33,160 bases of DNA, from contig JAHYJH010000021.1 in the NCBI GenBank assembly GCA_019429185.1, positions 1 to 33,160 of the forward strand, given 5' to 3'. Shown here one piece after another: positions 2,998 through 8,852 of this stretch. A program made the position numbers and the translations under genes. Position 1 is the stretch's first letter. Each line of letters opens with the position of its first letter. Source of the DNA: Vicingaceae bacterium (GTDB lineage Bacteria > Bacteroidota > Bacteroidia > Flavobacteriales_E > Vicingaceae). The notes under the pieces were generated by a model. That model searched no databases. It saw nothing but the letters and a program-made list of their open reading frames with translations, and was not told the origin of the DNA.

Positions 2998-4827
2998 TTA
3001 TAGCTTCTGTATTGCAATTAATTTTTTATACACCGAACTTGTCGGACTTTCGAGCAATTCTTTGTGAGTACCTTGTTCTACAATTTTGCCATTGTTTATT
3101 ACTACAATTTCATCGGCATTTTGTATGGTACTTAAACGGTGAGCTACAACTACAGATGTTCGGTTCTTCATAAGTTGATTTAAGGCTTCCTGCACCAATT
3201 GTTCAGACTCTGTATCTAAAGCAGAAGTAGCTTCATCTAACAGCATGATGGGAGGATTTTTTAATACCGCACGAGCTATACATAAACGCTGTTTTTGTCC
3301 TCCAGAAAGTTTCATTCCATTGTCGCCTATTTCTGTTTGGTATCCTTTTTCCGAAGCCAAAATAAATTCATGTGCATTGGCAACTTTAGCAGCTTCAATC
3401 ACTTCTTGCTCTGTAGCTGTTTCATTTCCAAAAACAATGTTGTTGTAAATGGTATCATTAAACAAAATAGAATCTTGAGTAACTATACCTATTTGCTCTC
3501 GCAATGAATGAAGCGTTATTTCTTTTATATTTTTATTGTCAATTAAAATTTCGCCTTTGTTAACATCATAAAATCTTGGAATTAGATTGATAACTGTTGA
3601 TTTTCCTCCTCCAGACGCACCAACCAATGCTATTGTTTTCCCTTTTTGAATACGTAAATTAATATTTTTCAACACTTCTGTTTCGCCATAACTGAATGAG
3701 ATGTTTTTTAGTTCAATGGCGTCATTAAATTCAGTGATTTTTATTGCATTAGGTGCATCGGTAATTTCTTCAATTGCATCTGTTACTTCAAAAATACGCT
3801 CTCCAGCAATTAATCCTCGTTGGATATTAGCAACTAAGGTAAACAAACTTTTCAATGGCGAAATAACATTGGCAAACAACAACACAAACACTAAAAAGTT
3901 TTCGGGAGGCATATAGTTTTCTTTCAATACCAATGTTCCTCCGTAATATAACACCATACAGAAAACAGCGACTCCCATAAATTGAGAAATAGGCGATGCT
4001 AATCCCTTTTTATAATCCATAGAGCGTAATGCTCGTTCATATTTTATGTTTTCGTGGGTAAACCGCTTTATAAAAAATTCTCCAGCGTTAAATGATTGAA
4101 TAATTTTCATGCCTCCCAACGCTTCATCAATGGTGTTTAATATCTTTCCTAAATAATCTTGTCCTTGTTTTGCTTTTTTGCGTAATAACGATGTTAATTT
4201 CCAAATGATAAACCCTGAAAGTGGTAATACCAGCAGAGAAAAAAGCAATAATTGAGGTGATAAATAATATAAAACTGCAAAAGAAACAACAACAGTTATG
4301 GGTTCTTTCACAATGCCATTGAGGGTGTCTATTATGGATGACTCCACCTCTTTAACATCATTGGTCATTCTCGACATTAAATCACCTCTTTTTTCGTTAG
4401 TGTAATAGCCCAAATGCAATCGGTTTATTTTCTCAAACAAGGCTAAACGTATGTTTTTAATCATTTTAGCTTTCACAAATGCTAAGATAAAACGAGAGAA
4501 AAATGTAAAGAAATTTGCAAAGAATACGGAGATTAATAAGACAAAGCAAATAATTTTTAAGGCTTCTGTTTTATCTGTAAAGGAAACAAGGTAATTTTTA
4601 AACCAAACGCCAATGTTGCTTATATAGTCTTTACTGAATTCAAAAGCAGGAAAAGCAGTTTTTACAACTTCCTGAGCTTCATCACTAAACAATATTTTTA
4701 GCACTGGAGCAACAAAAGACAAGTTAAGAATTTCAAAAATTATCCCTAAAATGGTGGAAACAATAAACATTGGAAGAAAACTCCTGAATGGACGAGCAAA
4801 AGAGAGTATTCTTAAATATATTTTCAT
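2998..4827 (-). CDS. MsbA-like ABC exporter, fused permease and ATPase
   Basis: A 609-residue half-transporter of the type I exporter fold that works as a homodimer in the inner membrane. The N-terminal half (about 1-330) carries six predicted membrane helices, followed by a nucleotide-binding domain. Walker A is GASGGGKST at about 403-411, the signature LSGGQ is at about 507-511, Walker B with the catalytic Glu is MLLDEATSALD shortly after, and the H-loop is VVVAHRLSTI. Sequence style and length fit the MsbA/lipid-exporter branch common in Bacteroidota, but the substrate (lipid A, other lipids or drugs) cannot be read from the sequence. It follows ftcD by 27 nt on the same strand and has no clear promoter of its own, so the two may be cotranscribed. 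Confidence 0.92.
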   Translation of the reverse strand: MKIYLRILSFARPFRSFLPMFIVSTILGIIFEILNLSFVAPVLKILFSDEAQEVVKTAFPAFEFSKDYISNIGVWFKNYLVSFTDKTEALKIICFVLLISVFFANFFTFFSRFILAFVKAKMIKNIRLALFEKINRLHLGYYTNEKRGDLMSRMTNDVKEVESSIIDTLNGIVKEPITVVVSFAVLYYLSPQLLLFSLLVLPLSGFIIWKLTSLLRKKAKQGQDYLGKILNTIDEALGGMKIIQSFNAGEFFIKRFTHENIKYERALRSMDYKKGLASPISQFMGVAVFCMVLYYGGTLVLKENYMPPENFLVFVLLFANVISPLKSLFTLVANIQRGLIAGERIFEVTDAIEEITDAPNAIKITEFNDAIELKNISFSYGETEVLKNINLRIQKGKTIALVGASGGGKSTVINLIPRFYDVNKGEILIDNKNIKEITLHSLREQIGIVTQDSILFNDTIYNNIVFGNETATEQEVIEAAKVANAHEFILASEKGYQTEIGDNGMKLSGGQKQRLCIARAVLKNPPIMLLDEATSALDTESEQLVQEALNQLMKNRTSVVVAHRLSTIQNADEIVVINNGKIVEQGTHKELLESPTSSVYKKLIAIQKL

Positions 4828-6688: not shown

Positions 6689-7345
6689 ATGAAACCTAAA
6701 CTGCTCCTTTTATCTTTACTATTTCTTTTAATAAGCGTTATTTCTATTTCGTGCGATGATTATGTTGTTCACAAAATAAATAAAACCATAACTGATAGTT
6801 TTTCCAAACAAGACAAAAAAATGATCAAAGAATTTACTAGCATAACCATTGATTTTGCGAAAATAAAAATTGAGCTACCAAAATATTACTTTAAAACCAA
6901 CCATGAAGAACTAACTTCAATTATTGATTTTATTGACGAAAACACTCAGATACAACTAAACAATATAAAGGAATTTGAAAAATCGAATAAAGGCTTCATT
7001 ATTTTTGTTGACTCTAATAATGTATTTAATCAAATAATGATTTTCGGTGCAGAACATACTTATTTTGATAAAAAATCAGCAGGACAATACCTTTATTTAC
7101 TTGAAAGACAACTTGAAAACGAATGGATTCCAAGAAATATTAACTATACAAGATTGGAGAGCAATTATTTATCAAACTCTAATGTAAGAATTCTAAAAGT
7201 TAAATACGAAACAAATATTAATAACATTACTAATTATACAACTCAATACATTATTACTACAGCAAAAAAATCATTTAGTATTGTTGTTAATAATAGTACT
7301 AATGAAGACTTTCAAAAAAATATTGCAGCTATAAAACTATTTTAA
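6689..7345 (+). CDS. Hypothetical lipoprotein
   Basis: A 218-residue protein I do not recognise. The N-terminus has a Lys-containing start, a hydrophobic core and a lipobox SIS-C with the acceptor cysteine at residue 22, followed by DD. This indicates a type II signal peptide and anchoring in the cell envelope; acidic residues just after the Cys recall, but do not match exactly, the Bacteroidota surface-export signal. The remainder is a Lys/Asn/Ile-rich soluble domain with no cysteine beyond the lipid one. It stands alone on the plus strand, diverging from ftcD with its own -7 box. Function unknown. Confidence 0.8.
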   Translation: MKPKLLLLSLLFLLISVISISCDDYVVHKINKTITDSFSKQDKKMIKEFTSITIDFAKIKIELPKYYFKTNHEELTSIIDFIDENTQIQLNNIKEFEKSNKGFIIFVDSNNVFNQIMIFGAEHTYFDKKSAGQYLYLLERQLENEWIPRNINYTRLESNYLSNSNVRILKVKYETNINNITNYTTQYIITTAKKSFSIVVNNSTNEDFQKNIAAIKLF

Positions 7346-7472
7346 AAACTAAACCAGTTCTAAGCTGTAAATTTACGTCCATCTGAAGCAGATTGTGTTG
7401 GTATTGTGTTGTTTCTTAGGTCTATCAAACACAAAACCTTATAAAAGAATACTATTTTTGTTACGATGATTT

Positions 7473-7604
7473 ATGATAAACATATTGTTAAGCCTTACGC
7501 TAAAACTGCTAACTTGTTTTCGTTTTTTACCTATTTTTGATGAATTGGTTTTCCAACTTTACGACTTGACAGATAAAGAAATAAAAATTGTGGAGGGGAA
7601 ATGA
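7473..7604 (+). pseudogene. C-terminal remnant resembling a restriction/N6-methylase protein
   Basis: A 43-codon frame ends with DELVFQLYDLTDKEIKIVEGK. This tail closely resembles the end of type IIG/Eco57I-like restriction-methylase proteins, which often close with a phrase like YELYGLTEEEI-x-VEG. Nothing recognisable of the catalytic or target-recognition parts precedes it, so it is read as a leftover 3' fragment. The stop is 5 nt before the hairpin chain. The family call is from memory of that C-terminal pattern. Confidence 0.45.
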
Positions 7605-7608
7605 TATT

Positions 7609-7822
7609 CAACCGCTTTGCGGTTGTACGAAAGGAGATATGTATTAACACTGCATTTCATACAGTGTTATTCAAATTAAATCCTTTCAGGATTTTGAAGC
7701 ATTATCAACTAAGCCTGAAGGGCTTAAATATGAATAACCGCAGGTGTAACCTGTGGAAACCGCAGGTGCAACCTATGGAAACCGTAGGTGCAACCTATGG
7801 AAACCGCAGGTGCAACCTGTGG
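7609..7822. repeat. Chain of eight short hairpins (REP-like) upstream of the RAYT remnant
   Basis: Eight inverted repeats follow one another. They are 7609-7625 (CAACCGC/GCGGTTG, 3-nt loop), 7645-7669 (TAACACTG/CAGTGTTA), 7678-7694 (AAATCCT/AGGATTT, 3-nt loop), 7710-7726 (TAAGCC/GGCTTA), and four copies of a 22-bp unit with stems at 7738-7756, 7760-7778, 7782-7800 and 7804-7822 (CCGCAGGT/ACCTGTGG type, 3-nt loop). Among the four copies, stem changes in copy 3 (T/A) keep pairing, while copy 2 has one mismatch. The next gene is a truncated REP-associated tyrosine transposase, the enzyme class that mobilises such palindromes. Confidence 0.8.
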
Positions 7823-7838
7823 AAAAAACAGTAAAAAA

Positions 7839-8078
7839 ATGAGTACTTATACCCAAATACTCTACCAAATTGTATTTAGTACTAAATACAGAGAACCTAC
7901 ATTCATTAAGAATAACAGAGATGAACTATTCAAATATATTTGGGGTGTACTAAAAAACAAAAAATGTCATTTATATCGAATAAATGGAGTTGAAGATCAT
8001 TTACACATTGTTACACAAGTTTCATTATCATCACTGGTAAAGGACATTAAAGTATCGAGTTCTTTGACAGCATTATGA
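7839..8078 (+). pseudogene. Truncated IS200-like REP-associated tyrosine transposase (RAYT)
   Basis: Only about the first half of an IS200/Y1 (TnpA_REP-type) transposase remains: 79 residues starting MSTYTQILYQIVFSTKYR, with the metal-binding HUH-type motif EDHLHI near residue 51. Complete relatives are roughly 140-150 residues and carry the catalytic tyrosine in the missing C-terminal half, so this copy should be inactive. The homology fails around KVSSSLTAL, and the TGA is the last base triplet before the dapF stop on the other strand. The ATG follows an A-run 16 nt after the last hairpin. Confidence 0.85.
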
Positions 8079-8852
8079 CTACAGAAAGGAAATTTCTCCT
8101 TTAAAAACCATTTCGGCAGGTCCAATTAGCCATATATCGGTAAATTTAGTCGCATCTCTTTTAAAGGCAACTTTTAACAAACCACCTTGTGTTTGAATTT
8201 CTATTTTTGATGCCCCTAATTGTTGTTGGTCAGCAATGCTCAACGCTACTGCGGTTACTCCTGTTCCGCAAGAAAGTGTTTCATCTTCCACTCCTCTTTC
8301 ATAAGTGCGAAGGGTTATTTTACCATTTTTTTGTTCCACAAAATTAACATTAGTTCCTTCGTTTTTAAACCTTTTGTTGTAACGAATTGCTGCTCCTTGC
8401 TCTTTAACATTGAGTGTTTGCAAGTTATCTGTTTGAATGATATAATGCGGAGATCCTGTGTGAATAAAGTAATAATCCGCTCCTTTTTCTATGTTTTCCA
8501 CATCGTGCATTTTCAAACTCACTTCTCCATTTTTGTTTATCCATGCTTCATGCTCTCCATCGGTTGATAAAAAATAAGCCTGACTTTCAATGATTTCTAA
8601 ATACTTAGCAAAAGCAACAGCACATCTGCTTCCGTTTCCACAAAAACTTTTAGAGCCATCGGCATTAAAATATATCATTTCAAAATCAAATTCATTGTGG
8701 TTTTCAATTAAAATTAACCCATCTGCTCCAATGCCAAATTTTCGATTACATAGTTGTTGCACCAACTGAATGTTTGTTTTATCAAACACATTGCTCCGAT
8801 TATCTATCATCACAAAATCGTTTCCTGTTCCTTGGTATTTATAGAAGTTCAT
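8079..8852 (-). CDS. dapF: Diaminopimelate epimerase
   Basis: A cofactor-independent cytoplasmic racemase that converts LL- to meso-diaminopimelate for lysine and peptidoglycan synthesis. The 257 residues start with the family signature YKYQGTGNDFVMID. Both catalytic cysteines are visible: C71 in SFCGNGSRC and C195 in ETLSCGTGVTAV. Length is normal (about 255-280). The ATG is 16 nt downstream of the glycosyltransferase stop on the same strand, so it is probably cotranscribed with it. The stop abuts the truncated transposase ORF with no intervening base. Confidence 0.96.
   Translation of the reverse strand: MNFYKYQGTGNDFVMIDNRSNVFDKTNIQLVQQLCNRKFGIGADGLILIENHNEFDFEMIYFNADGSKSFCGNGSRCAVAFAKYLEIIESQAYFLSTDGEHEAWINKNGEVSLKMHDVENIEKGADYYFIHTGSPHYIIQTDNLQTLNVKEQGAAIRYNKRFKNEGTNVNFVEQKNGKITLRTYERGVEDETLSCGTGVTAVALSIADQQQLGASKIEIQTQGGLLKVAFKRDATKFTDIWLIGPAEMVFKGEISFL

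Follow-up and report, generated by a model that had tools for sequence, protein, structure and literature searches.

A chain of double-hairpin modules before a truncated Y1 transposase gene in a Vicingaceae bacterium: probable remnant of a REP-like system of Bacteroidota

Transposases of the HUH-Y1 superfamily bind single-stranded DNA hairpins and cut at sites that are set by a short guide adjacent to the hairpin (PMC6006769). One group of these enzymes, TnpA-Y1 subclass 1.2, has been described as having no REPs and as generally lacking secondary structure at its termini (Quentin et al. 2018, PMC6006769). The locus considered here lies in a 33,160-nt stretch of DNA from a Vicingaceae bacterium (below, the window), where an earlier note, made from the sequence, had recognized a chain of hairpins leading into a truncated gene for a REP-associated transposase (RAYT).

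The chain occupies positions 7609-7822, and all eight hairpins were present as described. The last four of them form a tandem with an exact 22-nt period, and 16 nt separate the end of the final stem from the ATG at position 7839. The one compensated stem change that had been reported for the tandem (C-G to T-A) was found in unit 3, while in unit 2 only one side of a pair is changed (C.A). Four perfect stems of at least 6 bp were observed in the chain, compared with 0.2 expected from 300 shuffles (maximum 2). The 22-bp unit has exact matches in the genome at the chain only, and one match with two mismatches at another place. An Rfam search of positions 7300-8300 returned a chance-level match only. 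The features of the locus are collected in Table 1.

Table 1. Features of the hairpin chain and the truncated gene, in window coordinates. R1 is a covariance model whose training set includes both modules of the window; its E values are for the whole genome.
Feature	Position	Strand	Remarks
Eight hairpins of the chain	7609-7625, 7645-7669, 7678-7694, 7710-7726, 7738-7756, 7760-7778, 7782-7800, 7804-7822		
Outer hairpin A2'	7609..7625	-	CAACCGC-TTT-GCGGTTG; distal part of minus-strand unit
Minus double-hairpin module	7647..7695	-	R1 65.0 bits, E 2.9e-12
B' of minus module	within 7645-7669	-	10-bp stem, GAA loop, one T.G wobble, bottom strand
Linker of minus module, AATTTGAATAA	7667-7677	-	linker search
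A1' of minus module	7678-7694	-	GAA loop on bottom strand
Plus double-hairpin module	7709..7757	+	R1 63.1 bits, E 8.8e-12
A1 of plus module	7710-7726	+	
Linker of plus module, AATATGAATAA	7727-7737	+	linker search
B of plus module	7738-7756	+	GTA loop
Four B hairpins in tandem	7736..7823	+	period exactly 22 nt
Truncated Y1 HUH transposase	7839..8078	+	79 aa
Breakpoint, end of homology	8066..8081	.	~13 nt from dapF stop codon

The open reading frame behind the chain scored 50.9 bits against the Pfam family Y1_Tnp, covering positions 2-78 of the 121 in the profile. The best PDB match of the enzyme is the ISHp608 TnpA. Bacterial and archaeal genomes were scanned with the 79-aa fragment, which yielded 79 loci, 63-86% identical to it. 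Judging by their titles, almost all of them come from Bacteroidota, and most of those that do not run into the end of a contig code for a protein of 148 aa. Intact relatives carry D53-H54-x-H56, Y114, Q118, and H121-H122, i.e., a Y---Q--HH arrangement, as well as WQ. These are the signature elements of subclass 1.2 (Y---Q--HH, DH[IV]H, WQ, ~148 aa), of which the window copy keeps DHLH; the relatives also share the low copy number of this subclass and its occurrence mostly in Bacteroidetes/Cyanobacteria. The Y---NP motif of RAYTs (TnpA-REP, class 2) was not seen in the relatives, and the NCBIfam scores were 65.7 bits for IS200/IS605 (cut-off 55) and 30.9 bits for REP_Tyr_transpos (cut-off 80). 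Nor is the REP guide tetranucleotide, GTAG or GTGG, present at the foot of the hairpins, where the consensus has AATNTGAATA between hairpins. The enzyme matches TnpA-Y1 subclass 1.2 (Quentin et al. 2018); it is no RAYT in the strict sense, the class to which the earlier note had assigned it. This clade departs from the published description in that hairpin modules flank the genes here.

The module recurs in the relatives with a conserved layout. It consists of hairpin A (6-7 bp stem, GAA loop), the linker AATNTGAATA, and hairpin B (8-bp stem, GNA loop), and when a range of spacings was searched, the loops of A and B mostly lay 29 nt apart (82 of 92 cases). Short perfect hairpins occurred at 3.3 per 300 nt upstream and 2.8 per 300 nt downstream of the genes, compared with 0.37 in shuffled sequences and 0.23 at a distance of 1.5 kb. 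Modules with the 29-nt spacing were found 104 times within 600 nt of 80 genes, and 10 times in 247 kb of sequence located more than 1 kb away. A search anchored on the linker only, with no hairpin demanded, likewise gave 104 matches near genes and five far from them; 74% of pairs over 14 positions were Watson-Crick in this set, and GAA was the commonest A loop (62/104). Covariation was observed in all 14 pairs, with 96.9% paired versus 27-47% when slid, figures that are inflated by pre-selection of the modules for pairing; the association with the genes rests on the proximity and linker-anchor counts.

The eight hairpins of the window are two copies of this one conserved module with extra hairpins added, and not the unusual mixture of four different stems that they had been taken for. 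The two modules face each other head to head, 13 nt apart. Near the 80 genes, 18 such tight head-to-head pairs were counted, that of the window included, with gaps of 16-95 nt as measured by a profile search that trims ends. The three extra B copies in the window occupy the place of A2 in most relatives. Single-hairpin tandem arrays are also found near other genes (25 bp x 5 at locus L017; 29 bp x 4 and x 6.6 at L029), and chains of hairpins like that of the window are usual in this transposase clade.

Intact genes have modules to either side, inverted with respect to each other. The nearest upstream module was on the plus strand at 55 loci and on the minus strand at 16, while the nearest downstream module was on the minus strand at 44 loci and on the plus strand at seven, mostly beginning 35-75 nt past the stop codon. 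In a sequence-profile search, a full-length module was missing within 450 nt upstream at 20 of 76 loci, and downstream at 40 of 72. At locus L134, there is a module pair on both sides of the gene. At L012, from the family of the host, the minus unit of the window lies directly past an intact gene, with 83% identity over 87 nt; the stretch A2' B' A1' precedes the gene of the window but follows the intact one of L012, and the A2' sequence of the window is also found past the L012 stop codon. A 20-nt sequence, AAATTGTGGAGGGRAAATGA, adjoins the minus unit on its outer side in both places (window 7585-7604, before the unit; L012 3540-3559, after it), and resembles a ribosome-binding site with a start codon. 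When genus relatives were searched for an empty site of the L012 gene, only the gene and a stretch ~1.2 kb past the gene end were matched, with no shared upstream flank; the matching stretch past the gene corresponds to 3638-4401 of the query. Far from being absent near intact transposases, which had been named as the outcome that would speak against such a link, the hairpins occur beside many intact relatives. They are repeats that belong to an IS200/REP superfamily transposase, and in this the earlier note was right.

Relatives that were left out of the model (L100-L105, 59-78% identical) also bear the module, while most clades of genes less than 50% identical are without it. In other clades with the Y---Q--HH signature, strong hairpins numbered 0.3 per 200 nt upstream and 0.85 downstream, with 0.13 in controls. 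Because these clades have few strong hairpins and most lack the module, the latter marks one clade within subclass 1.2.

Copies of the module are also dispersed in host genomes. With R1 at E <=0.01 and at most 150 candidates scored per genome, 15 host genomes contained from three to at least 67 modules each, many of them far from the transposase gene. Close copies of the gene itself (>=68% identity) were mostly limited to one per genome, with three in genome G010. The repeats are thus short, palindromic, and dispersed, arranged in inverted pairs and clusters, and mostly accompanied by one full gene per genome. In plasmid and phage collections, distant relatives of the gene were found on two chromosome-sized plasmids and none in phage. 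Apart from the two modules of the chain, all that the genome of the window holds is a single degraded relic of the form A1-linker-A2, on contig C44. Seven near-identical copies of ~205 nt, with the structure A1-B-A2-B'-A1', are present in G009 in different contexts and in both orientations, and comparable mini-elements occur in G005. Among the G009 mini-elements L119-L128, the central hairpin and the B hairpins have loops that read inverted from one copy to another (CTAC/GTAG, TTTT/AAAA), which looks like a flipping of the hairpin tips.

Some dispersed copies in G009 and G005 bear outer inverted repeats, AATGTCGTTTWKTTAAG, which are generally absent at gene loci, and these outer-repeat copies may have been spread by another transposase. 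The mini-elements L119-L128 (G009) and L154-L168 (G005) have a common outer repeat AATGTCGTTTWKTTAAG / CTTAAMWAAACGACATT, which is missing at nearly all gene loci. The outer repeats are what one would expect if the module were an unrelated MITE moved by some other, e.g., DDE-type, transposase, with the Y1 gene merely lying beside or inside it. We regard this explanation as unlikely, since the dispersed copies in G007 and G010 have no outer repeats, the position of the module past the stop codon is nearly fixed, and its tie to the gene is clade-specific, with the module present at genes of at least 59% identity and mostly lacking at those below 50%.

Slightly less probable still is that the chain acts as a structured mRNA leader, whose hairpins would regulate expression of the transposase as 5' UTR structure does in some IS200-type genes. 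Compared with shuffled sequence, the hairpin region folds with a z-score of -7.5 as RNA and -6.7 as DNA, as the folding check called for in the earlier note revealed, and the start codon follows it at once; being so close to the ATG, the hairpins could incidentally restrict translation. Yet modules are found equally past the stop codon, on the opposite strand, and far from genes of the family, and no match to a promoter of the Bacteroidota type was found on the plus strand upstream of the gene. The pattern of wobble pairs points the same way. Departures from Watson-Crick pairing on the GAA-loop strand were G.T rather than A.C by 38 to 8, in both orientations, and by 37 to 12 in the linker-anchored set, counts which come from related sequences and thus carry no strict probability; the G.T wobbles track the strand of the GAA loop and not the sense strand of the gene. 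Because modules flank intact genes on both sides and on both strands, the transcribed leader that had been suggested for this locus is disfavoured. A further reading, chance inverted repeats combined with local replication slippage and unrelated to the gene, has in its favour that slippage explains the 22-bp tandem well and that the unit is unique in the genome, but this very improbable reading is already contradicted by the shuffle controls and by the presence of the module in relatives across the phylum.

The gene in the window is incomplete. Homology to the intact 148-aa protein runs to approximately residue 79-81, and compared with the nearest relative, four residues are deleted right after the HUH motif. 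The copy was said to have lost its catalytic half, which is true of the tyrosine half (the catalytic Tyr, Q, HH, and the tail are gone) but not of the HUH motif, which is kept as DHLHI. There is no downstream module at this locus. No matching second half of the gene was found elsewhere in the genome, nor was there a close intact copy in it, the other aligning Y1 genes being 39% and 32% identical. The idea that the chain is the substrate of a related active copy in this genome finds no support, as those two genes are without the module. They encode Y---Q--HH transposases (L001 and L002, on host contigs C64 and C194; the identities are those with the L012 protein), and are surrounded by different short palindromes.

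None of the same-genus genomes has the gene at dapF, and the genes beyond dapF differ in those that were read. Given that homology stops near dapF, and that same-genus genomes lack the gene and have other sequence there, a deletion or rearrangement likely removed the rest of the window gene. A comparison of window positions 8079-8852 with L136-L138 shows that the sequence beyond the dapF 3' end varies among the genomes of the genus that were compared, suggesting a rearrangement-prone spot. Decay of the gene is recurrent: other copies, at L016, L018, and L038, are interrupted by a stop or a shift of frame after only 46, 102, and 91 aa. L085 and L090 are truncated by contig ends and give no evidence of a common truncation point.

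Taken together, the chain probably represents head-to-head double-hairpin end modules of a transposon-like system of Bacteroidota, with one expanded hairpin and a dead first half of the transposase gene. The best reading of the window copy is a dead remnant of a REP-like system that would be read as single-stranded DNA by a subclass 1.2 transposase. The fixed geometry, the covariation, the inverted association with intact genes on both sides, the dispersal, and the truncation at this locus are supported directly. The cognate HUH-Y1 enzyme would read the modules as folded single-stranded DNA, on the strand with GAA/GNA loops; the hint as to the strand comes from the excess of G.T over A.C there in both orientations. 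A further hint is that GNA triloops are unusually stable in DNA. The GAATA of the linker may act as a guide-like recognition site, and cutting and rejoining of module units by the enzyme could lead to REP/REPIN-like spread without any rise in the copy number of the gene. The B tandem of the window presumably arose when one hairpin was expanded by slippage, and the chain would be what remained after a deletion or rearrangement had taken the downstream module along with the tyrosine half. The window copy is ordinary, and the point of interest is the module at the level of the family.

We would give about even weight to the broader proposal of a Bacteroidota-wide REP-like system that is served by a subclass 1.2 transposase outside the RAYTs, uses a rigid two-hairpin single-stranded DNA unit (a GAA loop and a GNA loop 29 nt apart, with a GAATA linker between the hairpins), and was domesticated independently from the IS200 branch. 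A literature search, covering the main texts of openly readable papers, returned no earlier report of the module, and the novelty of its repeats for this branch of enzymes is provisional. If the module is the substrate of subclass 1.2, a group that had no recognisable DNA partner in the 2018 description gains one, and pairing of REP-like repeats with a transposase would have arisen at least twice, from two branches of one enzyme family. The rules of recognition are testable with oligonucleotides, the module being short, with conserved geometry and free stem sequence. For annotation, the module accounts for a frequent hairpin pattern in intergenic DNA of Bacteroidota.

Among described systems, TnpA-Y1 subclass 1.2 (PMC6006769) resembles this one in its 148-aa protein, the D-H-[hydrophobic]-H, WQ, and Y---Q--HH motifs, the conserved C-terminal tail, low copy number, and occurrence in Bacteroidetes; the clade studied here differs by its elaborate double-hairpin modules, which flank the gene on either side and also occur as dispersed copies. 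IS200/IS605 elements (IS608, ISDra2) likewise have enzymes of the HUH-Y1 family and hairpins near their ends, whereas the modules here are mutually inverted on the two sides, and the gene, which is mostly single-copy at this level of identity, hardly occurs on plasmids or in phages. TIRYTs and TIRtrons (Di Nocera 2013, PMC3733652) are Y1 genes with partly self-complementary flanking inverted repeats and some dispersed families, but their proteins were grouped with RAYT-like enzymes, and their TIR motif, GGGGWSAS, is not present here. REP-RAYT systems (REPtrons, BIMEs, and REPINs; Nunvar 2010, Bertels 2011, Di Nocera 2013) resemble the system described here in that a chromosomal gene of low copy number has inverted hairpin repeats at its flanks, while many further copies of the repeat are dispersed as inverted pairs, and tandem clusters occur. 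In contrast to them, the enzyme here is not of the Y---NP class, there is no GTAG tag, and the repeat is a two-hairpin unit with a fixed loop-to-loop distance.
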